Assembly: GCA_040218145.1 (NCBI GenBank)
Contig: JAVJQK010000138.1
Span: 1-64,000, forward strand
Reading direction: 5' to 3'
DNA: 64,000 bases
Origin: Sandaracinaceae bacterium
GTDB taxonomy: Bacteria > Myxococcota_A > Polyangia > Polyangiales > Sandaracinaceae
Position 1 is the stretch's first letter. The number at the start of each line of letters is the position of its first letter. A program made the position numbers and the translations under genes. Shown here in pieces: positions 3,700 through 61,224 of the stretch. The notes under the pieces are model-generated. The model saw only the letters and a program-made list of their open reading frames with translations, was not told the origin of the DNA and did no database searches.

Positions 3700-6600
3700 C
3701 GACGCCCACGCTCCCCGCGCCTCCGTCGTCGGTCGCCGGGTCGTAGCCGAAGCCGCCGGGCCCGCCGGCCACGCTCACCGTCGCGCCAAACGCGCCGCTC
3801 GTCGCCACCGTGCCGCCCGCGCCGCCGCCGCCGGGGCCCGAGTAGTCCCAGCAGCTGGTGGTGGAGGCGCCAGTGCAGCTGACGCCCATCGGGTCGCCCT
3901 CGCCGGACGCTCCCTCCGCGAGCACCGCGCCGGCCCCCGAGACGTCGCCGATCAGCACCGCGATGCCGCCGCCCGCGCCGCCGAAGCCGCCGGGCGGGTT
4001 GTCGGCGAGGGTGTTGTCCGCGCCGCCCGAGCCGCCGCCCGAGCCGAAGAGCCAGCGACCGGCCACGCCGTACGCCATGCCCGCGCCGCCGCCGCAGCCG
4101 CCTCCCGCGCCCGCGCCGCCCGCCGCCGTGTGGCCGCCGCCGCCGCCCGGGTGTCCGAACGAGCCGCACGCCTCGCCCGTGCCGCCGCCGCCGCCGCCGA
4201 CGTTCGCGCTCGTCGTGTTGGGGGCGCCGACGCCCACGATCGACTCGCCCTGCGCGCCGTTGAAGAACGCGGTCGTGTTGCGCGCGCCGCCGCGGTAGCC
4301 GCGCCCGCTGACGTCCACCGCGCCGTCGAGCGTGAAGCCGCTCGTGGCGCGCATCGCGAAGACGCCGCCGCGCGTTCCGTCCCAGGGGCTCACCGTCAGC
4401 GTGACGCCCGCGGCGACGGTGACGGCGTCGAACACCGGGACGCGCTGCAGCACGACGCGCTGCGTGCCCGCGCCCGCGCCGAGGTTGGTGTCGTCGCTCG
4501 CGCCGTCGCCGTAGAAGTTGGACTTGGGCGCCGTGAACGTGACGGTGGAGCCCGCCACGCTCGCGACCTGGAGCACCTCGACGTTGCCCACGTTCACCGC
4601 GGAGCCGGCGTGGCCCTGCAGGTTGATCAGGAGCACCTCGTCCCCGGCCGACAGGCAGCCCGCGCTCGGCGCCGCGCTCAGCGTCGCGTCCATCGCGCCC
4701 AGGCCCGTCACCGAGTACGAGACCATCTCGCCGCCGTCGGCGCAGCTGCGGCCCGCCGTGTTGAAGGTGCTCAGGTTCGCGTCTCCCGAGAACGCCGTCA
4801 CCACCCGACGCCGCCGCACGTAGACCTCGGTGTAGGGCAGCGGGTGGTCCCCCGCGTTCTCGGAGTAGAGGAACGTCGTCGGGCTCGTCGAGCCGCCCGT
4901 GGTCGACAGCCCGTAGCCGAAGCCGTCCTTGTTGCCGTGTCCGCCCCAGTCCCAGGTGAACACGCGCTGGTAGTCGTTCGGCGTGACGGATCCGTAGGCG
5001 AAGGTGTCCTCGGTGTTGGTGCTGGGGTAGGTGCCGCCCGGCCCGAAGGCCGACGGGCCCACCACGTGCGAGATCCCGAAGCCGATCGGCGCGCCGTAGG
5101 ACTCCACGCCCGGGCCGCCGCCGTCGTAGACCCACGTCCAGGTCGTCCGGCTGAGCGGGCGCCAGCGCACGTCCTGATAGCCGCTTCCGTCCGCCGCCGC
5201 CGCGCGCCGGAGCCAGATCTCCGTGTCCGTGAAGTCGATGCCCGCGCTGTTGTCGATGAGCTCCTGGATGAGCGCGCTCGCGAGGTAGGTCGGCGTGAAC
5301 GCGGCCGTGGTCCCGCGCCCGGTGCGCACGTCCTCCGGCATGCCCGCGCCCGCGTCCGAGAAGCCCCAGTCCTCGCGGCCGCGGCCGACGAGGACCCAGC
5401 CGCCGCCGTCGAAGTCGTCGTCGACGTAGAGCGGGACCGTGCCGCCTCCGATGGCGAACTCGTGCTCGCCCGTGCCGAGGCCGAACGCGGCGTCGAGCGA
5501 GCGGTGGCCGCAGCTGCCCGCGTCGCACACGCCGCTCGCGCAGACGTTGCCGCACGCGCCGCAGCTCGAGGCGGAGCTCAGGTCGGCCTCGCAGCCATCC
5601 GACAGATCGACGTTGCAGTCCGCGAAGCCCGAGTTGCACACCTGACCGCAGCCGCCGCCCACGCAGACCGGGGTCGCGTTGGTGGCCGCCGCGCAGGCCG
5701 TGCCGCAGCCGCCGCAGTTCGCCGGGTCGATGTCGGTGTCCGTGCAGACCCCCATGCAGTCCGAGAAGGGCATGCTGCAGCTCGTCGTGCACGCGCCCAT
5801 CGCGCAGATCTCGCCGGGGCTGCAGGTGGTGCCCGCGCTCATCCCGGCGCAGGTGCCCGACGCGCCGCAGAACGCGCGGTCGGTGTCGGGGTCGACGCAG
5901 CGTCCGCCGCACGCGATCTGGCCGGACGGGCAGCTCAGCGAGCAGGTGCCCATGCCGCAGACCTCGCCCGACGCGCAGGTGTCGCCCGCGTTGACTCCCG
6001 CGCAGTCACCCGCCGCGCCGCAGTAGACGGGGTCGGTGTCCGGGTCGACGCAGCGTCCGCCGCAGGCGAGCTGACCCGAGGGGCAGCTGACCGTGCACGT
6101 GCCCATGCCGCAGACCTCGCCCGACGCGCAGGTGTCGCCGGCGTTCATGCCCGCGCAGTCGGCGCTCGCCCCGCAGTAGACGGGGTCGGTGGACGGGTCG
6201 ACGCAGCGTCCGCCGCAGGCGACCTGTCCGCTCGGGCAGCTGGCGCTGCAGACGCCCGCCGCGCAGACCTCGCCCGCGGTGCAGGTGTCGCCGGCGTTCA
6301 TGCCCGCGCAGTCCGCGCTCGCGCCGCAGTAGGTCGGGTCGGTCGACGGGTCGACGCAGCGTCCCGCGCAGTCGACCTGGCCGCTCGGGCACGAGGTCGC
6401 GCAGGTCCCGGCCGCGCACACCTCTCCCGCGCTGCACATCGCGCCCGCGTTGGCGCCCGCGCAGTCCATCGACGCGCCGCAGAAGACGCGATCGGTGTTC
6501 GGGTCGACGCAGCGACCGCCACAGGCGATCTGCCCGGCCGGGCAGCTCGTGTCGCAGATCCCCGCCGCGCAGACCTCGCCCGCGCCGCAGGTGACGCCCG

Positions 6601-7954
6601 CGTTGGCGCCGCCGCAGTCCATCGACGCGCCGCAGTAGGCGCGGTCCGTGTTCGGATCGACGCAGCGCCCGCCGCACGCGATCTGCCCGCTCGGGCAGCT
6701 GGTGGCGCAGGCGCCGGCCACGCAGATCTCTCCCGAGACGCAGGCCGCGCCCGCGTCGGGTCCGCTGCAGGTGCCCGCCGCGCCGCAGAACGCGCGGTCG
6801 GAGCTCGGGTCGACGCAGCGCCCACCGCAGACGAGCTGTCCGCTCGGGCAGCTCGTCGCGCACGTGCCCGCGGCGCACACCTCACCCGCGCCGCAGATGT
6901 CGCCCGCGTCGGGGCCGGCGCAGCTGGCCGAGGCGCCGCAGAAGTTCCGGTCGGAGTCCGGGTCGACGCAGCGACCGCCGCACTCGATCTGCCCGGGAGG
7001 GCAGCTGGTGGCGCAGGCGCCGGCCGCGCAGACCTCTCCCGCGGCGCAGCTGGCCCCCGCGTCGGCGCCCGTGCAGGCGCCGGACGCTCCGCAGAAGTCA
7101 CGGTCGGTGGCGGGATCGACGCACGCGCCGCCGCACTCGATCTGTCCCGCGGGGCAGCTCACGTCGCAGCTTCCCGCCGCGCAGAGCTCTCCCGCGGCGC
7201 AGGTCGCGCCGGCGTCGGAGCCGGTGCAGTCGCCCGAGGCGCCGCAGAACGCGCGGTCGGTGCTCGGGTCGACGCAGCGCCCACCGCACTCGAGCTGTCC
7301 CGCGGGGCAGCTCGTCGCGCACGCTCCGTCCACGCACACCGCGCCCGGGTCACAGGTCACCCCGGCCTCGGCGTCGGCGCAGCTGCCGGTCGCGCCGCAG
7401 TAGGCGCGGTCGGTGTCGGGATCCACGCAGAGCCCGTCACAGACGAGCTGTCCGCTCGGGCAGCTGGTGGTGCACACGCCGTCGGCGCAGACCTCTCCGT
7501 CGCCGCACGCCAGATCGCACCCGCCGCAGTGGTCTCGGTCCCGGCCCGTGTCGACGCAGCCGCCGCCGCAGAGCGTCGGGGTGTCGCCGCCGCAGGACAG
7601 CCCGCAGCTCCCGCTCGAGCAGACCTCGCCGTCTCCGCACGCCGCGCCGCACGCGCCGCAGTGCGCGCGGGCGACGTCGGTGTCGAAGCAGCCGCCCTCG
7701 CAGTCCGTCTGGCCGGCCGGGCAGGTGGTGGCGCACATCCCCCCCGAGCACACCTCGCCGTCACCGCACGCGACGTCGCAGGCGCCGCACGCATCGGGCG
7801 AGCTGGAGACGTCGACGCAGCGATCGCCGCAGCGCACGAGCCCGGTCGCGCAGTCGTCGGCGCCGTCGAGCGCTCCCCCGTCGACGGGATCGCCGCCCCC
7901 ACCGCAGCCGTGCATCGCCGCGACCAAACCCACGCACCACAAGAATCGCTTCAA
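3689..7954 (-). CDS. Giant Cys-rich repeat lipoprotein with fibrinogen-like domain
   Basis: 1421 aa. The TTG at 7954 is chosen as start because an excellent ribosome site, GGGAGG, lies five bases upstream and the product begins with a signal peptide (KRFLWCVGLVAAMHGC) ending in a lipobox-like Cys. Residues about 35-760 hold 16 Cys-rich units, eleven of them exactly 51 aa (pattern CPSGQxxCGGRCVDPxTD). A region with GGGWVLVGRG, W-rich spacing and EVYVRRR resembles a fibrinogen-like C-terminal domain. The last ~350 residues are Gly/Ala-rich, probably beta-structured. It is probably anchored on the outer membrane, but its partner is unknown. It is third in an operon with the genes at 9928 and 8002. 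Confidence 0.85.
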   Translation of the reverse strand: MKRFLWCVGLVAAMHGCGGGGDPVDGGALDGADDCATGLVRCGDRCVDVSSSPDACGACDVACGDGEVCSGGMCATTCPAGQTDCEGGCFDTDVARAHCGACGAACGDGEVCSSGSCGLSCGGDTPTLCGGGCVDTGRDRDHCGGCDLACGDGEVCADGVCTTSCPSGQLVCDGLCVDPDTDRAYCGATGSCADAEAGVTCDPGAVCVDGACATSCPAGQLECGGRCVDPSTDRAFCGASGDCTGSDAGATCAAGELCAAGSCDVSCPAGQIECGGACVDPATDRDFCGASGACTGADAGASCAAGEVCAAGACATSCPPGQIECGGRCVDPDSDRNFCGASASCAGPDAGDICGAGEVCAAGTCATSCPSGQLVCGGRCVDPSSDRAFCGAAGTCSGPDAGAACVSGEICVAGACATSCPSGQIACGGRCVDPNTDRAYCGASMDCGGANAGVTCGAGEVCAAGICDTSCPAGQIACGGRCVDPNTDRVFCGASMDCAGANAGAMCSAGEVCAAGTCATSCPSGQVDCAGRCVDPSTDPTYCGASADCAGMNAGDTCTAGEVCAAGVCSASCPSGQVACGGRCVDPSTDPVYCGASADCAGMNAGDTCASGEVCGMGTCTVSCPSGQLACGGRCVDPDTDPVYCGAAGDCAGVNAGDTCASGEVCGMGTCSLSCPSGQIACGGRCVDPDTDRAFCGASGTCAGMSAGTTCSPGEICAMGACTTSCSMPFSDCMGVCTDTDIDPANCGGCGTACAAATNATPVCVGGGCGQVCNSGFADCNVDLSDGCEADLSSASSCGACGNVCASGVCDAGSCGHRSLDAAFGLGTGEHEFAIGGGTVPLYVDDDFDGGGWVLVGRGREDWGFSDAGAGMPEDVRTGRGTTAAFTPTYLASALIQELIDNSAGIDFTDTEIWLRRAAAADGSGYQDVRWRPLSRTTWTWVYDGGGPGVESYGAPIGFGISHVVGPSAFGPGGTYPSTNTEDTFAYGSVTPNDYQRVFTWDWGGHGNKDGFGYGLSTTGGSTSPTTFLYSENAGDHPLPYTEVYVRRRRVVTAFSGDANLSTFNTAGRSCADGGEMVSYSVTGLGAMDATLSAAPSAGCLSAGDEVLLINLQGHAGSAVNVGNVEVLQVASVAGSTVTFTAPKSNFYGDGASDDTNLGAGAGTQRVVLQRVPVFDAVTVAAGVTLTVSPWDGTRGGVFAMRATSGFTLDGAVDVSGRGYRGGARNTTAFFNGAQGESIVGVGAPNTTSANVGGGGGGTGEACGSFGHPGGGGGHTAAGGAGAGGGCGGGAGMAYGVAGRWLFGSGGGSGGADNTLADNPPGGFGGAGGGIAVLIGDVSGAGAVLAEGASGEGDPMGVSCTGASTTSCWDYSGPGGGGAGGTVATSGAFGATVSVAGGPGGFGYDPATDDGGAGSVGVVNP
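5780..7462 (-). repeat. Eleven tandem 153-nt coding repeats
   Basis: The stretch equals exactly 11 x 153 nt (51 codons each) inside the Cys-rich lipoprotein gene, with no indels between units. Each unit encodes eight cysteines around CGGRCVDP, FCGAS and GEVCAAG. Neighbouring units differ at scattered positions, so the array is old or gene-converted rather than freshly expanded. Flanking units on both sides are shorter and less regular (about 42-47 aa). Confidence 0.92.
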
Positions 7955-11274: not shown

Positions 11275-11300
11275 GTCAGGGGGCTGAAAAGCCCCCTGAC
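11275..11300. other. Perfect 11-bp hairpin with GAAA tetraloop
   Basis: The stem GTCAGGGGGCT pairs with AGCCCCCTGAC around a GAAA loop. It lies 100 bases upstream of the membrane-protein gene start and at the left edge of the hexamer-bounded element. There is no T-run on either side, so it is not a standard intrinsic terminator. It could be an RNA structure or the end of a repeated element. Confidence 0.75.
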
Positions 11301-11558
11301 CCCTTGCCCTGCCCTTGCCCGCGCGCTCGAGGCGACGCACCGCCCGACGGGGGCAGAGTGTTGGGAGATCGGCGACTTGCTCTGCGCCCGCCGCGCGCTC
11401 GAGGGCGATGTGGGAGCAAGGGCGACTCGAGAGCAGTGTTGGGGGCAGAGTGTTGGGGAGCAGAGTGTTGGGGGGCAGAGTGTTGGGAGGCAGAGCGTTG
11501 GGGGATCGGCGAGCTGCTCATCGCGGGCACGGGCAGGGGCACGGGCACGGGCACGGGG
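11301..11558. repeat. Hexamer-bounded non-coding element (copy 1)
   Basis: This fills most of the gene-free stretch 11176-11595. Its left edge is a degenerate TGCCCT/TGCCCG array (11305-11321). Its right edge is the inverse type, GGGCAC/GGGCAG units (11525-11558). Inside, a phrase like GTTGGGAGATCGGCGA near 11363 recurs as GTTGGGGGATCGGCGA near 11497. A tandem array of GCAGAGTGTTGGGG-like units also lies inside. An open frame on the minus strand is low-complexity and probably not a gene. The same layout of inverted hexamer borders recurs at 36535-36785. Confidence 0.65.
11432..11510 (+). repeat. Tandem array of ~15-nt GCAGAGTGTTGGGG units
   Basis: Five imperfect copies of GCAGAGTGTTGGG with one to three extra G or A as spacer. 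The first copy lacks the inner GA and the last reads GAGCGTTGG. A sixth, isolated copy sits near 11353-11366. Runs of G make the plus strand strongly G-rich, so G-quadruplex formation is conceivable. No coding role is evident. Confidence 0.85.
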
Positions 11559-11594
11559 CAGGCGCCGCTCGGCCTGACGGCCTCTCGGCGCCTG
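11559..11594. terminator. Long GC hairpin just after a stop codon
   Basis: CAGGCGCCG pairs perfectly with CGGCGCCTG, and GGCC-TGAC-GGCC forms an inner stem, giving an extended stem-loop. It begins one base past the stop codon (11596-11598) of the minus-strand lipoprotein gene. It could end that transcript or protect its 3' end. It lacks a U-tract, so termination strength is uncertain. Confidence 0.5.
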
Positions 11595-11595
11595 C

Positions 11596-12285
11596 TCAGC
11601 GCTCGAGGGCGTGGGTCGCGGTGGCGCGGCCGTCCCGGTAGCGCGGGCGCAGGTCCTGGACGCCGGCGCGGATTCCGTCGCGGTAGGACTCGATGCGCAT
11701 CTCCGCGGGGCAGGCGGCGGGCTCGAAGCGGAGCGCGGCCAGCTCGCCGTCCCCGGCGTCGCAGCCGGAGGTCTCGACCACCACCTGTGGAGCGCCGGGT
11801 GAGGCCTGGCACGCGACGGGCGCGGCGTCGTCGCAGGGCAGGGTCACGGCGCAGCGGATGTGGTTGCCCTCGGTCAGGATCTCGAAGGCGTACTCGGCCG
11901 CGCGCCAGCCCCGGCGGCGGCGCAAGGCGACGCGCACCCCGCAGTCTTCGCAGTCCGCGCTCGGCTCGGGCTCGCAGCGCGTGAAGGTCGCGTGCGAGGG
12001 CGTGCTGCTGATCGAGTCCGGGTTGGGGGCCGCGTCCTCGACTTCGACTTCGTCGCCCTCCGCGGCTTCGTCGATCTCGGCCTCGTCGACCTCGGCCGCA
12101 GCCGTGGCGCCTTCGCTGCGTGCGTCCGCGCTCGACATCGCCTCGGGCGTGCTCGCTTCGGAGGTGGCGCTCGCCTCGGCGCCCTCGCTTCTCTCGTCCG
12201 CGCGAGGCGGCGCCGTCGCACGTTCGGGAGCGCCGCAGGCGCAGGAGAGGACGAGGCAGAGGAGTGCCGACGAGAAGCGGAGCAT
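11596..12285 (-). CDS. Lipoprotein, acidic linker plus unknown domain
   Basis: 229 aa. The signal peptide MLRFSSALLCLVLSCACG ends in a lipobox-like SCAC. Residues about 20-95 are a low-complexity Glu/Ala/Asp/Ser linker. The folded part (about 100-225) has seven or eight cysteines, including CEPEPSADCEDCG, CAVTLPCDD and a CPAEM, which suggests disulfide bonds outside the cytoplasm. I do not recognise the domain. A gene-free stretch with a hairpin and a repeat element lies downstream. It is divergent from the hybrid kinase gene at 12348. Confidence 0.78.
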   Translation of the reverse strand: MLRFSSALLCLVLSCACGAPERATAPPRADERSEGAEASATSEASTPEAMSSADARSEGATAAAEVDEAEIDEAAEGDEVEVEDAAPNPDSISSTPSHATFTRCEPEPSADCEDCGVRVALRRRRGWRAAEYAFEILTEGNHIRCAVTLPCDDAAPVACQASPGAPQVVVETSGCDAGDGELAALRFEPAACPAEMRIESYRDGIRAGVQDLRPRYRDGRATATHALER

Positions 12286-35425: not shown

Positions 35426-36517
35426 ATGCGAACCCTCTCCATCTCATCTCACGCGGCGCTCGCGCTGCTGGTCCTGACCGGTTGTTACGTGGAGCGCGTG
35501 GACGACCCCGTGCGCCACGGAGGCGTCGTCACCGCGGAGGTGCCGCGCCCGCGGGGGCCCGAGGACGTCCAGATCGCCGACAACGTTCACTTCGGCGAGA
35601 CGCGCGAGGGGCAGTTCACGGGCCAGGACGGCGTCGCCATCGGCTACGTGCTCGCCGCGGCGGCGGGGACCTCGTTCGGCGTCGCGCTGACGGCGGAGCC
35701 GACCAGCGAAGTGCTCGTCTACGGCCCCCTCGCGGAGGGCTGGCACGACGCTCCCTTCCTCGCGCGCGGCGGCGGCGATGGCGAGCTGAGCGTGAGCGCG
35801 CCGCAGGACGGGAGCTACCTGCTCGCCGTGCTCGGTCCGGCCGGCACCCACCGCGGCTTCTCGCTCACCGTGCGCTGCGCCTCGGAGGAGTGCCGCGTGG
35901 AGTGCGGTGAAGGGGGCGCCTGCCCGACCGGATCTCAGTGCGCGTTCGTGCAGTGCATCCGCGCGCCGTGCCCCTCGTACTGCCAGGGCATGCCGCCGGT
36001 CAGCGAGCCTCCGGAGGCGAGCGAGCCGCCGGGCGCGGGCGGAGACCGGATGGGGACCGAAGGCGAGACCTGTGGGACCCGCGGGTTCGCGCCCTGCGGG
36101 GAGGGCCTCTTCTGCCGTCACCCCGAGACCGCGCGGTGCGGAGAGACCGACGCGCCCGGAACGTGCCAGCGCCGCCCCGACATGTGCACCCGCGAGTACC
36201 GGCCGGTCTGCGGCTGTGACGGCCGCACCTACGGCAACGCCTGCGGCGCCTGGGCGAACGGCGTCTCGGTCCGCCACCAGGGCGAGTGCGGTGGGCAGCG
36301 CCCCGACCCGGGCGCGCAGGCCTGTCGGCGCACCGGCTGCGGCGACGAGCTGTGCGTGGATCCGAGCCGGGGCGACATGATGGGCACCTGCGTCGCCCGC
36401 CCCGAGCACGCCTGCTACCGCAACGCGACGTGCGAGAGGCAGGCGGGCGGTGACTGCGGCTGGACGCAAACCCCCGAGCTCCGCGCCTGCCTCCAGAGCC
36501 CGCCGCCGCTCCGCTGA
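35426..36517 (+). CDS. Lipoprotein with Kazal inhibitor domain and Cys-rich C-terminus
   Basis: 363 aa. The lipobox is LTGC at residue 20. Residues about 40-150 form a beta domain (QDGVAIGYVLAAAAGTSF). A Cys-rich region follows. The Kazal-type serine-protease-inhibitor domain sits at about 254-288 with CTREYRPVCGCDGRTYGNAC. The C-terminal part (CRRTGCGDELCVDPSRGD to CGWTQTPELRACL) matches an eight-cysteine cluster often found in myxobacterial lipoproteins. It may protect the cell from proteases (inference). The hexamer-bounded element begins just past the stop. Confidence 0.85.
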   Translation: MRTLSISSHAALALLVLTGCYVERVDDPVRHGGVVTAEVPRPRGPEDVQIADNVHFGETREGQFTGQDGVAIGYVLAAAAGTSFGVALTAEPTSEVLVYGPLAEGWHDAPFLARGGGDGELSVSAPQDGSYLLAVLGPAGTHRGFSLTVRCASEECRVECGEGGACPTGSQCAFVQCIRAPCPSYCQGMPPVSEPPEASEPPGAGGDRMGTEGETCGTRGFAPCGEGLFCRHPETARCGETDAPGTCQRRPDMCTREYRPVCGCDGRTYGNACGAWANGVSVRHQGECGGQRPDPGAQACRRTGCGDELCVDPSRGDMMGTCVARPEHACYRNATCERQAGGDCGWTQTPELRACLQSPPPLR

Positions 36518-36534
36518 CCAGCCTGCGTGCTCCT

Positions 36535-36785
36535 TGCCCGTGCCCTTGCCCCTGCCCCTGCCCCTGCCCGCGAATCAGCGGACGCAGTGTTCGAGGACGC
36601 GACGAGATTCGAGACGACTCGTTCGAGCTGCCCGAGCGCCGTCGCCAGCGCGGCCTGGTGCGCTTCTCCGCGGCGCGCGATCGCCGCGCCATTCGGTAGA
36701 AGCGGAGGTTGGCGCTCGAGCTGAACTCGCTCAGCGCCTTCGGTGATGTTCGCCACGCCTCGAGATCCGAGGGCAGGGGCAGGGG
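36535..36785. repeat. Hexamer-bounded element (copy 2)
   Basis: This lies in the 282-base gene-free stretch 36518-36799. Six TGCCCx hexamers (36535-36570) form the left edge and two to three GGGGCA hexamers (36771-36785) form the right edge, in inverted orientation. The interior holds a broken four-helix-bundle gene on the minus strand. The border layout matches the element at 11301-11558, although the interiors differ. No transposase or recombinase is linked. Confidence 0.65.
36580..36757 (-). pseudogene. Decayed four-helix-bundle (23S rRNA-IVS-type) protein
   Basis: On the minus strand, pieces of the four-helix-bundle/S23 family can be read across two frames. ANITEGA lies in one frame (from about 36757), then EFSSSANLRFYRMARRS in a second frame, then HQAALATALGQLERVVSNLV back in the first. 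The N-terminal ~60 residues normally ahead of AN(I)xEG are missing, cut at the hexamer array. After NLVASSNTASADSRAGAG the frame runs into the left hexamers, which encode Gly-Ala repeats. At least two frameshifts make it non-functional. Family assignment is by eye. Confidence 0.55.
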
Positions 36786-36799
36786 AGCAGGCTGCTTCT

Positions 36800-37201
36800 T
36801 CAGCCGCCTGCCAGGCCGTCGAGCACGTGCTTCGCGAGCACGAAGGCGGTCAACGTGCCGGTGAGCACCTCGCGCTCACCGACGCGGGCGCGGACCTCGA
36901 CCTGGCGCTTCTTGCCCTGGGCTTCCTGGACGCGCGCGCTCGCGACGACCGTCTCGCCGACCTTCACCGGGGCGGTGAATCGGAGCTCGGCCGCGCCGAG
37001 GACCACGAATGGATCGTTGACGGCCAGCATCGCCGCGTGGTCGGCCAGCCCGAACACGAACCCGCCGTGCACGAGGCCGCGCTCGTCGGTGCCCATCTCC
37101 TCGGTCGTGACGAAGCGGGTGGTCGCCTCCCCGTCGGAGAGGGACACGATCTCGCCGCAGAGCCGGGTGGAGATCTTCGGGTGCGTGTTCGGCTTCGTCA
37201 T
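36800..37201 (-). CDS. Hotdog-fold thioesterase
   Basis: 133 aa, single hotdog domain. GLVHGGFVFGLADHAAMLAVN covers the long central helix and catalytic region, and ELRFTAPVKVGETVVASARV is the following strand set; both are typical of PaaI/4HBT-type acyl-CoA thioesterases. Substrate unknown. The gene starts four bases after the stop of the Pro-rich membrane protein gene (37205), so the two are almost certainly one operon. Confidence 0.88.
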   Translation of the reverse strand: MTKPNTHPKISTRLCGEIVSLSDGEATTRFVTTEEMGTDERGLVHGGFVFGLADHAAMLAVNDPFVVLGAAELRFTAPVKVGETVVASARVQEAQGKKRQVEVRARVGEREVLTGTLTAFVLAKHVLDGLAGG

Positions 37202-45229: not shown

Positions 45230-45598
45230 ATGAGCGACCTCCCCGACATGTTCAAGAAGGGCGACCGCGTGTTCGCCCGTCAGCTGGGCAAGCCCGACGT
45301 CCGCGGCAAGATCTCCTGGGTCGGCCAGAGCCGCTTCGGCATCGGCATGCGCTACGGCGTCAAGGGCGACGACGGCATCACGTACTGGTTCGACGAGGAG
45401 CACGTCGAGCCCGAGTCGAACCCCGGCGAGCGCGGCCCGAACGAGATGGGCAAGGGCAGCCGCGTGCGCGTCGTCTCCGGCCCGCACGAAGGCGTCATCG
45501 GCGACATCTACCTCTGGGTCCCCACCGGCCGCATCGGGATCCGGGACGACGACGAGAACACCTACTGGGTCGAGCGCAAGCAGATCGAGCTCGAGTAG
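45230..45598 (+). CDS. Protein of two tandem SH3-like (KOW-type) units
   Basis: 122 aa, soluble, no signal peptide. Two related halves are visible: FKKGDRVFARQLGKPDVRGK with YWFDEEHVEPE, and MGKGSRVRVVSGPHEGVIGD with YWVERKQIELE. Each half looks like a small beta barrel of the KOW/SH3-like type, which often binds nucleic acid or ribosome partners. ATG at 45230 is chosen; the 22-residue in-frame extension upstream looks non-coding. Function unknown. Confidence 0.8.
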   Translation: MSDLPDMFKKGDRVFARQLGKPDVRGKISWVGQSRFGIGMRYGVKGDDGITYWFDEEHVEPESNPGERGPNEMGKGSRVRVVSGPHEGVIGDIYLWVPTGRIGIRDDDENTYWVERKQIELE

Positions 45599-59277: not shown

Positions 59278-61224
59278 TCAGCGGCAGCAGAGCGCGACGC
59301 CGCACGTCTCGCTGACCGAGCTCGTGCACGTGCTGCCCGCGATGCACCCTGGGAAACCCGCGCCGCGCACGTAGTAGGGCCGGTCCATCGAGCCGGTGAC
59401 GTGGATGTAGAGGTTCGCCGCGCTCCCGCATGCGCAGGTCGCCGCGCCGCCGCCGCAGCCGCAGCCGGAGCTGGCGAGGTAGCTGTGCGTCGCCGGATCG
59501 CAGAGCTCCGCGGCCGAGCAGAGGCTCCAGGTAGGCCCGAGCGCAGAGCAGGCCGCCGCCGCCGCGGCGCGGTTCGTCGACGACACCGTGGTCGGCAAGT
59601 AGACGCAGCGGCCGCCGACCCTCACCCCGGGGCAGTCGCCGCAGAAGCCCATCGTGCACATGCCCGTCACGCAGTCGGCCGGCGTCGCGCAGCCCTGGCC
59701 GTCGGGGCAGCGGGGGCAGGCCGTCGCGCCGCCGCAGTCCACGCCCGTCTCGCCGCCGTTCTGCACCCCGTCGCTGCAGGTCGGCGCCACACACGCGCCG
59801 CCCATGCAGATGCCCGACAGACAGTCGCCGCCGGCCGCGCACATCTCGCCCGTGTCGCAGCCCATGCAGGTCCCGCCGCCGCAGTCCACGTCCGTCTCCG
59901 CGCCGTTGAGCAGCCCGTCGCCGCAGCCCGGCGCGTTGCAGCGCATCGTGCCCGCGTCGCAGATCCCCGACGCGCAGTCCGCCGGCCCGGTGCACATCTG
60001 ACCGGTGCCGCAGCCCGGGCAGATCGCGCCGCCGCAGTCCACGTCGACCTCGTCCTGGTTGCGCACCATGTCCGCGCAGCTGACGCAGGTGCCCGCCTCG
60101 CAGACGCCCGACGCGCAGTCCCCGCCCGCCGTGCACGACCGTCCGTCCGCGCACGCCGCGCAGATCGCACCGCCGCAGTCGACGTCGATCTCGTCCTGGT
60201 TGAGCACGCCGTCCGAGCAGCTGACGCACGCGCCGGCCTCGCACGTGCCGGACGCGCAGTCGCCGTCCGCCGCGCACGCGAGCCCATCGGCGCAGCCGGC
60301 GCAGACTGCGCCGCCGCAGTCCACGTCGGACTCGTCCTGGTTGAGCGCGCCGTCCGAGCAGCTGACGCACGCGCCGCCCTCGCAGGTCCCGCCCTCGCAG
60401 TCCCCGTCCACCGCGCACATCTGCCCGTCGGCGCAGGCGTCGCAGGACGCGCCGCCGCAGTCCACGTCGGTCTCGTCGCCGTTCCTCATCAGGTCCATGC
60501 ACGACACGCAGCCGCCCATGACGCAGCGCGCGCTCGCGCAGTCCATGTCGACGTTGCACGCGAGCCCGTCGGCGCAGGGCGGGCAGATGGACCCGCCGCA
60601 GTCGAGGCTCGTCTCGTCCTGGTTCTGCACCGAGTCGTTGCAGGCCGCCGCGGTGCAGGTCCCGTCCGCGCAGATCAGGCTCTCGCAGTCGCGGTCCTCG
60701 ACGCACGACAGCTCCGCCCCGCACGGCGCGCACATCTCGCCGCCGCAGTCGACGTCGGTCTCGTCGAGGTTCTGCCGCCCGTCGTCGCACGAGCTCATCG
60801 TGCACATGCCGCCCTGACAGCGGCCGCTGAGGCACTGGTCGTTCGTCGTGCAGGGCTCGCCGCCGCCGCAGAGCGGGCACGGCTCCGCGCCGCAGTCGAC
60901 CCCCGTCTCCGGCCCGTTGCGCACCCCGTCCATGCAGCTGGGCACCAGGCATCGCCCGCGCCCGCACACCGCGCTCAGGCAGTCGCTCCCCTCGCGGCAG
61001 CTCTCGCCGTCCGCGCACGGATCGCACGACCCACCGCAGTCGATCCCCGTCTCGTCCCCGCCCCGCTCGCCGTCGTCACACAGCGGCTCGGGCGGCCCCG
61101 CGTCCAGCGTCCGCCCCGAGTCCGCCGGGATCGTCCCCGAGTCGAGCTCTCCGGTCCCGGAGTCACAGGAGGTGAGGGCGACGGCACACGAGAACGTGCC
61201 GAGGAGTACGCAGAGTCGTCTCAT
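59278..61224 (-). CDS. Cys-rich repeat lipoprotein (ten-unit)
   Basis: 648 aa. The lipobox is LTSC, followed by a short Asp/Ser/Gly linker. Ten Cys-rich units of about 42-47 aa follow, with the pattern CxDGxxNxxETDVDCGGxxCxxC and ADCASGxCxxGxCV. The last ~105 residues form a separate domain with VYLPTTVSSTNRAAAAAACSAL and AELCDPATHSYLASSG, also Cys-rich. It should be an elongated, disulfide-rich surface protein. It differs from the 153-nt repeat protein at 3689, though both occur in the same window. It is downstream of the Ser/Thr kinase at 61414. Confidence 0.88.
   Translation of the reverse strand: MRRLCVLLGTFSCAVALTSCDSGTGELDSGTIPADSGRTLDAGPPEPLCDDGERGGDETGIDCGGSCDPCADGESCREGSDCLSAVCGRGRCLVPSCMDGVRNGPETGVDCGAEPCPLCGGGEPCTTNDQCLSGRCQGGMCTMSSCDDGRQNLDETDVDCGGEMCAPCGAELSCVEDRDCESLICADGTCTAAACNDSVQNQDETSLDCGGSICPPCADGLACNVDMDCASARCVMGGCVSCMDLMRNGDETDVDCGGASCDACADGQMCAVDGDCEGGTCEGGACVSCSDGALNQDESDVDCGGAVCAGCADGLACAADGDCASGTCEAGACVSCSDGVLNQDEIDVDCGGAICAACADGRSCTAGGDCASGVCEAGTCVSCADMVRNQDEVDVDCGGAICPGCGTGQMCTGPADCASGICDAGTMRCNAPGCGDGLLNGAETDVDCGGGTCMGCDTGEMCAAGGDCLSGICMGGACVAPTCSDGVQNGGETGVDCGGATACPRCPDGQGCATPADCVTGMCTMGFCGDCPGVRVGGRCVYLPTTVSSTNRAAAAAACSALGPTWSLCSAAELCDPATHSYLASSGCGCGGGAATCACGSAANLYIHVTGSMDRPYYVRGAGFPGCIAGSTCTSSVSETCGVALCCR
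59648..61080 (-). repeat. Ten coding repeats of about 126-141 nt
   Basis: The Cys-rich units of the lipoprotein gene, marked by the recurring VDCGG codons and the CASG phrase. Unit length varies, unlike the strictly 153-nt array at 5780-7462. Units four to eight are most alike. Confidence 0.85.

Follow-up and report, generated by a model that had tools for sequence, protein, structure and literature searches.

Two array-bordered blocks in the window

The stretch of DNA analysed here, hereafter the window, comprises the first 64,000 nucleotides (nt) of contig JAVJQK010000138.1 of a Sandaracinaceae bacterium (assembly GCA_040218145.1); it is 73% GC and is part of an 11 Mb genome in 148 contigs. 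Two spots in the window, at 11301-11562 (copy 1) and 36533-36785 (copy 2), are bordered by short tandem arrays that face one another, (TGCCCN)n on the left and (NGGGCA)n on the right, with hairpins outside the arrays and, in copy 2, the remains of a gene of the IVP family between them. Both blocks probably belong, as decayed copies, to a single family of small mobile elements of IVP type. The facing hexamers had been described at both spots in an earlier sequence-only reading of the window and are present in both, although the left border of copy 1 is weaker than was claimed: three TGCCC units are there, and one of them is irregularly spaced.

Arrays of this kind are rare by chance. In 100 simulated sequences with the third-order word statistics of the window there were no arrays of three or more units, and arrays of at least two units occurred at a mean of 0.15 per sequence, compared with five in the window; such borders are not equally frequent at random, an outcome that the sequence-only reading had named as one that would refute it. 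Away from the two spots the only array in the window is a two-unit one at 45447. The weaker arms—copy 1 left and copy 2 right—have just two to three units. Folding as single-stranded DNA predicts that the arms pair in both copies, with z-scores of -2.75 and -3.67. The stop codon of the plus-strand gene at 35426-36517 lies 17 nt ahead of the left array of copy 2, and that of the converging gene on the other side is within the hairpin loop, such that the element provides the end of that gene. The features of both blocks are shown in Table 1.

Table 1. Features of the two array-bordered blocks and of the gene ends that adjoin them.
Feature	Position	Strand	Evidence
Copy 1 left terminal hairpin, GTCAGGGGGCTGAAAAGCCCCCTGAC	11275-11300		Sequence and predicted stem; genome-wide hairpin excess outside arrays
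Copy 1 left array, CCCTTGCCCTGCCCTTGCCCG, three TGCCC units with slightly irregular spacing	11301-11321	+	Sequence
Copy 1 interior, no IVP remains found, holds a 15-nt tandem repeat	11322-11523		Repeat and IVP searches
Copy 1 right array, (NGGGCA)5 at 11524-11553, then GGGGCAGG (GGGGCA) to 11562	11524-11562	-	Sequence
Copy 1 right terminal hairpin, CAGGCGCCG...CGGCGCCTG	11559-11594		Predicted stem and sequence
TGA stop of gene 11596-12285 (-), directly where the right hairpin has its foot: TGAGCAGGC, against TAGCAGGC in other copies	11596-11598	-	Sequence
Copy 2 left array, (TGCCCN)6 at 36535-36570	36533-36570	+	Sequence
Copy 2 interior, decayed IVP (PF05635) gene in two frames	36571-36767	-	DNA matches to L106 and L104, protein match to L315
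Copy 2 right array, two to three NGGGCA units (36770-36785)	36768-36785	-	Sequence
Copy 2 right terminal hairpin, GCAGGCTGC TTCTTCA GCCGCCTGC	36787-36811		Predicted stem and sequence
TGA stop of converging gene 36800-37201 (-), within the hairpin loop	36800-36802	-	Gene call and sequence

The tandem repeat in the interior of copy 1 (11435-11504) has the 15-nt unit AGTGTTGGGGGGCAG in 4.7 copies, with GGGCAG in every unit.

Remains of an IVP gene

PF05635 (23S_rRNA_IVP, or S23) is a family of four-helix-bundle proteins. Pieces of a gene of this family follow one another on the minus strand of copy 2 in the order VANITEGAE (36730-36756), EFSSSANLRFYRMARRS (36678-36728) and EAHQAALATALGQLERVVSNLVASSNT (36586-36666), and the middle piece is the best match in the window to the intact IVP protein of locus L315 in a related genome (12 of 17, E 0.009). 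The interior DNA of copy 2 matches two clearer relics in the same genome, L106 with 83% identity over 60 nt and L104 with 77% over 102 nt. The frameshifts bring the score of a plain IVP profile on copy 2 close to zero, and the call was therefore made using these DNA matches together with the L315 protein.

Relic L106, on contig 105, reads LFPRTARARLRNQLERSATSIVANIAEGAGELSPSE, followed by a deletion and then by NCDR-stop two bases from the array. It matches the IVP protein profile with an E-value of 6e-9, while the best of 1000 control segments reached 0.019 (with a larger search size), and the same spot was recovered independently by a whole-genome Pfam search. A motif corresponding to the 3' end of the IVP gene lies just inside 14 of 82 arrays and outside only one of 82, and is found in 0.55% of random windows. 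A decayed PF05635 gene is thus seen in copy 2, L104 and L106 and an intact one in L315, which argues that the copies are decay products of a gene-carrying element. The sequence-only reading had held that the interiors differ and that the border is the shared part; the two interiors in the window are indeed unlike each other, but that of copy 2 matches other copies in the genome, and the outer hairpins are shared as well.

The intact PF05635 genes of the window genome itself were considered as a source of the element and rejected, as they have long TCCGNN-type hexamer arrays nearby and few or no TGCCC arrays. These genes (L031-L060; about 25 nearly identical intact copies encoding 125 amino acids, many at contig ends) sit beside the TCCGNN-type arrays, some together with 90-nt palindromic repeats starting GGGACGCTCGTCGTCTTGTCGTCAT, and constitute a second, seemingly younger, IVP-linked repeat family.

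Arrays across the window genome

A search of the whole genome gave 161 overlapping matches to the three-unit pattern and 37 to the five-unit pattern. At least 60 distinct arrays are present; a lack of further copies, which would have refuted the sequence-only reading, is therefore not what is seen. Arrays were analysed from approximately 1 Mb of sequence around and beyond the pattern matches, and the counts of facing and of unit number exclude a few arrays in coding or other repeat sequence (L081, L109, L112). Neighbouring arrays less than 500 nt apart face inward in 15 cases and outward in none; by array, 22 of 58 have an inward partner and 0 of 58 an outward one. The number of units peaks at five (28 of 58 arrays).

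A hairpin with a stem of at least 9 base pairs lies within 55 nt outside the array in 30 of 60 cases by a strict rule, compared with 2.5% of random stretches, and the typical outer end reads TAGCAGGC-GCTGAAGAACGC-GAGC-GTTCTTCAGC-GCCTGCCCCT. Using rough gene calls, the genes adjoining arrays present 35 3' ends and 15 5' ends. Their stop codon is TAG in 21 of 33 instances, compared with 146 of 706 overall (p 4e-8), and this TAG is often at the foot of the hairpin, where the base preceding it varies in the window genome. The left hairpin of copy 1 is upstream of the minus-strand gene to its left, about 100 nt from the gene start as read from a GAAGGAG resembling a ribosome-binding site and an ATG; this suggests that the hairpin is part of the element rather than solely a feature of gene ends.

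The intact form and elements in other genomes

Among 282 genomes searched from the phylum, G126, which is of the same class as the window genome, has the locus L315, where the parts are arranged in the order TAG-hairpin-array-IVP gene-array-hairpin-CTA. At its left end a gene ends in TAG, followed by the hairpin GCGGAAGAACGC-GGA-GCGTTCTTCCGC and then by CCTGCCCC and TGCCCN units. The IVP gene is open (VHFDHDRLDVYN...VVSMLTNLVRGD), and its frame continues through the right array as Gly-His repeats; the right end has GGGCAN units, the identical hairpin, and CCTGCTAG, whose TAG appears, on our own reading, likewise to end a gene converging from the right. The hairpins at the two ends are identical with CTAG outside both, and a palindromic CTAG end of this kind is indistinguishable from a target duplication. 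Further loci in G126 share TAGGAGCGTGACCCC...GGGGTC(T)CGCTCC followed mostly by five TGCCCG units; their flanks differ up to the C of CTAG, and they therefore look like dispersed insertions.

Elements with TGCCC arrays in genome G028 were examined as further copies and rejected, being miniature inverted-repeat transposable elements (MITEs) that have ends of their own of approximately 30 nt and carry the arrays inside. There are about 25 copies (L122, L126, L141, L149, L258-L277) of approximately 300 nt, with ends like GTACGTTCTCAAAAAGTSGTGGC and with facing (TGCCCN)n and (NGGGCA)n arrays around a conserved core of approximately 80 nt.

Three other arrangements were seen. Genomes G001 and G006 have orthologous IVP elements (L169 and L171) adjoining a tRNA-like gene (anticodon CAT, as judged by eye). 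Within each element the two arms are near-perfect matches, yet the two species have different arrays, as would be expected if the arms evolved jointly. In G011 different IVP genes are paired on opposite strands about 45 nt apart (L157, L170), at several places in the genome and with (GACAGT)n-type arrays near. The approximately 80 nt directly after the IVP stop in L154 (1826-1907) match more than 40 places in G001, some of them in tandem, and so constitute another dispersed repeat.

IVP genes between inverted arrays in many phyla

The array pattern around intact IVP genes of related genomes was first noticed by eye. Genome contigs were then scanned with a closer set of IVP proteins, A2, which replaced a broad alignment, A1, that was not conserved enough as a query; this gave 80 loci in many phyla. 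For each gene the preceding 200 nt were compared with the reverse complement of the following 200 nt, and the 8-mers in common were counted. Ten or more common inverted 8-mers are present at 53% of the IVP genes and at 1.2% of shifted control positions in the same loci (p 8e-32), and ten or more in direct orientation at 9% of the genes. The common parts of the flanks are mostly tandem arrays whose unit differs from genome to genome—AGGTCGT, GAGTATT, GCGAGTG, TCACATC, AGGCAAT and others.

Seven genomes of several phyla (L178-L184; for example L181, 456-3734) have an array-IVP-array unit inside the gene for a site-specific DNA-methyltransferase. The host frame is open through the insert in six of the seven and the IVP gene is in a different frame, from which it follows that this stretch may code for two proteins. 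Plasmid homologues of the methyltransferase are without most of the insert at this place, and L337 has some other sequence there. Most of the seven also have an array-like insert, without IVP, at another place in this protein; L183 and the plasmid homologues lack it. This comparison of occupied with empty sites is one between proteins, with homologues about 60-70% identical and the site in a variable linker, rather than a polymorphism within a species.

Repeat period and protein clade

The period of the flanking arrays goes with the type of protein. In the A2 scan set the period is 7 in 60 of 61 periodic flanks, whereas relatives of the window-type IVP have a period of 6 or its multiple 12. 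On a tree of the 82 IVP proteins with a period call, in which the split between two clades, A and B, has a support of 99 and many inner forks are unresolved, the period is 7 nt in all 46 loci of clade A and 6 nt in 33 of the 36 of clade B; one of the three exceptions, L306, has by eye a clear 6-nt array beside a 7-nt one. The association of period with clade has a p value of 8e-20, uncorrected for relatedness, and four changes of period are needed on the tree, as opposed to 26 with shuffled labels. The clade-A loci are spread over many phyla and the clade-B set comes from a single one, so host lineage could account for part of this association; but both types occur in genome G014 alone, where L151 is of clade A and its arrays have 7-nt units, and L168 is of clade B and its arrays have 6-nt units.

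Interpretation and alternatives

The reading of both blocks as remnants of mobile IVP elements draws on these observations together. A full element would consist of TAG (often the stop of the adjoining gene), a hairpin, about five TGCCCN units, a clade-B IVP/S23 gene, about five NGGGCA units, a hairpin and CTA, and loss of the gene through internal deletion and frameshift would leave array-to-array remnants. The sequence-only reading had proposed a small non-autonomous mobile element without a linked transposase, and the copies are indeed small, dispersed, mirrored at their borders and without a linked transposase; they are more than borders, however, given the decayed IVP gene and the hairpins. 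Movement in the window genome would be deduced from the dispersal of the copies and from the insertions in other genomes.

A mechanism may be proposed in outline. The Xanthomonas protein has been described as a homopentamer of four-helix bundles that form a toroid (PMC4990558), solved relatives (2gsc, 2rld) have five chains each, and the arrays in the window genome peak at five units. A pentameric IVP ring might bind one arm with one repeat unit per subunit. The protein would fix the unit length as the unit sequence drifts; that the clade does fix the length despite this drift points to such a geometry. Two rings, or the paired arms, could bring the ends of the element together in a stem formed by single-stranded DNA or by RNA, with cutting and joining by a host or other enzyme, and the terminal hairpin and TAG would allow insertion at the ends of genes without much damage. 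No match to the Y1 transposase (Y1_Tnp) or reverse transcriptase (RVT_1) families, the only two searched, was found in G126, and a trans-acting enzyme of another family may move the element.

Several observations weigh against these proposals. The protein match of copy 2 is weak by itself, because of the frameshifts, and copy 1, in whose interior a search for IVP remains found none, would be assigned to the family by its borders only. The hairpin sequence varies, even between the two ends of one copy, unlike clean terminal repeats, and neither a clean empty site nor a target duplication was found for the copies in the window genome. When G001 was compared with G006, elements were absent from the orthologous spots of the sister species, which hold other DNA. 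About a quarter to a third of the IVP loci have no clear periodic array, clade-A arrays have closer to four units than to five, and the restriction of the clade-B set to one phylum, noted above, is of the same kind.

Of the alternatives, an RNA-level element comparable to the intervening sequences of rRNA—with arms that pair, excision by RNase III, a protein that acts on RNA, and only rare mobility of the DNA—is improbable in our view. In its favour, the rRNA intervening sequences contain the same gene and are bounded by inverted repeats that RNase III cuts (PMC4990558), and arm pairing is predicted in both window copies. Excision without religation would, however, destroy the mRNA of the methyltransferase into which the element is inserted, yet the host frame there is kept open, and RNA processing alone does not explain the dispersal. 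Slightly less probable still is that the blocks are non-mobile bidirectional transcription terminators or stabilisers of mRNA ends, with a hairpin and a C-rich tail for each converging gene. Most arrays do face gene 3' ends, 16-51 nt past the stop codon and with the hairpin between, and a terminator role of the hairpin may coexist with mobility; but in copy 1 the left hairpin and array precede the start of a gene, arrays enclose IVP remains and, in L315, an intact IVP gene, and similar array pairs occur inside a coding gene in other genomes.

We regard it as very unlikely that the blocks resemble repetitive extragenic palindromic (REP) sequences or REP doublets forming hairpins (REPINs), moved in trans by a REP-associated tyrosine (RAYT, Y1) transposase, with the arrays incidental. 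Inverted palindrome pairs in spacers, a foot TAG that resembles the GTAG tag of REPs, and one strong Y1_Tnp match in the window genome would suit this, but G126, which is 94% complete and has the intact element and dispersed copies, is without such a match, and its element ends are CTAG rather than GTAG; neither an IVP gene nor short arrays are known to occur within REPs. Microsatellite expansion by replication slippage, with arrays that face each other by chance, or G-quadruplex elements, merit hardly any credence: the arrays fit a G3N3 quadruplex pattern on one strand and vary in unit number, but the strict facing and the association with IVP largely refute this explanation, there are hairpins and IVP remains beside the arrays, and IVP-flanking arrays elsewhere (GAGTATT, TCACATC, AGGCAAT) are without G runs. 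G-quadruplex formation as a general principle was rejected for the same reason, as most IVP-adjacent arrays elsewhere are without G runs.

Relationship to known systems

Intervening sequences in 23S rRNA genes, such as that of Coxiella burnetii, have an S23/IVP gene between stem-forming terminal inverted repeats, have been called selfish, and are suggested to have been mobile in the past; the IVP family, these terminal repeats and the suggested former mobility are thus already known (PMC4990558). The elements described here are similar in having a PF05635 gene between inverted ends, with facing arrays predicted to pair, and behave like a small selfish insertion with stem-forming ends. They differ in lying between protein-coding genes or inside one, in having borders composed of tandem arrays of 6-7 nt units and hairpins, and in being mostly gene-less remnants in the window genome. 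As they are not located in a 23S rRNA gene they are not members of that class, and an Rfam search of the window gave no match.

REPs, bacterial interspersed mosaic elements and REPINs with their RAYT (PMC3116915, PMC2817692) are likewise short, non-coding, multicopy elements with inverted palindromes at gene ends. Here the foot is CTAG or TAG, tandem arrays are present, and the full form has an IVP gene; G126 has no RAYT, and G001 and G006 are also without a Y1 transposase match, so that the element is not a member of the REPIN/RAYT class. Avd, the accessory protein of diversity-generating retroelements, is a related four-helix-bundle pentamer. The element is not one of these retroelements: there is no RVT_1 match in G126, and no template or variable repeat was noted. 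The heptamers of the cyanobacterial short tandemly repeated repetitive sequences and the TAACTGA repeats of Beggiatoaceae resemble the arrays in being 7-nt short tandem repeats dispersed in spacers, but are described as direct repeats that precede genes, with a single inverted case; the text of the TAACTGA paper (PMC4679880) mentions neither S23 nor a four-helix protein.

In the open-licence literature searched we found no description, outside rRNA, of IVP genes flanked by inverted arrays of short repeats, which is not proof of novelty, and no report of the association of period with clade. This association gives the widespread S23/IVP family a likely ligand and a direct test, and the link between repeat length and protein type may be a clue to the workings of an element without a recognisable transposase. 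If the mobile-element reading is true, dispersed short-repeat arrays in bacterial spacers would be explained, a possible origin of the rRNA intervening sequences would be shown, and there would be a mobile element without a recognisable catalytic gene for transposition. We tentatively offer a broader proposal, which we consider possible though short of probable, that IVP elements form a class of mobile DNA of their own in which the sole protein, a non-catalytic pentameric ring, counts units (of 6 nt in one clade and 7 nt in the other) on the mirrored arrays of the two ends and host enzymes are borrowed for movement, the rRNA intervening sequences being one landing site and many unexplained short tandem repeats in bacterial spacers being scars.

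Other repeats in the window

Long tandem repeats with units of 141-459 nt are present at 5777-7498 and 59723-60631.
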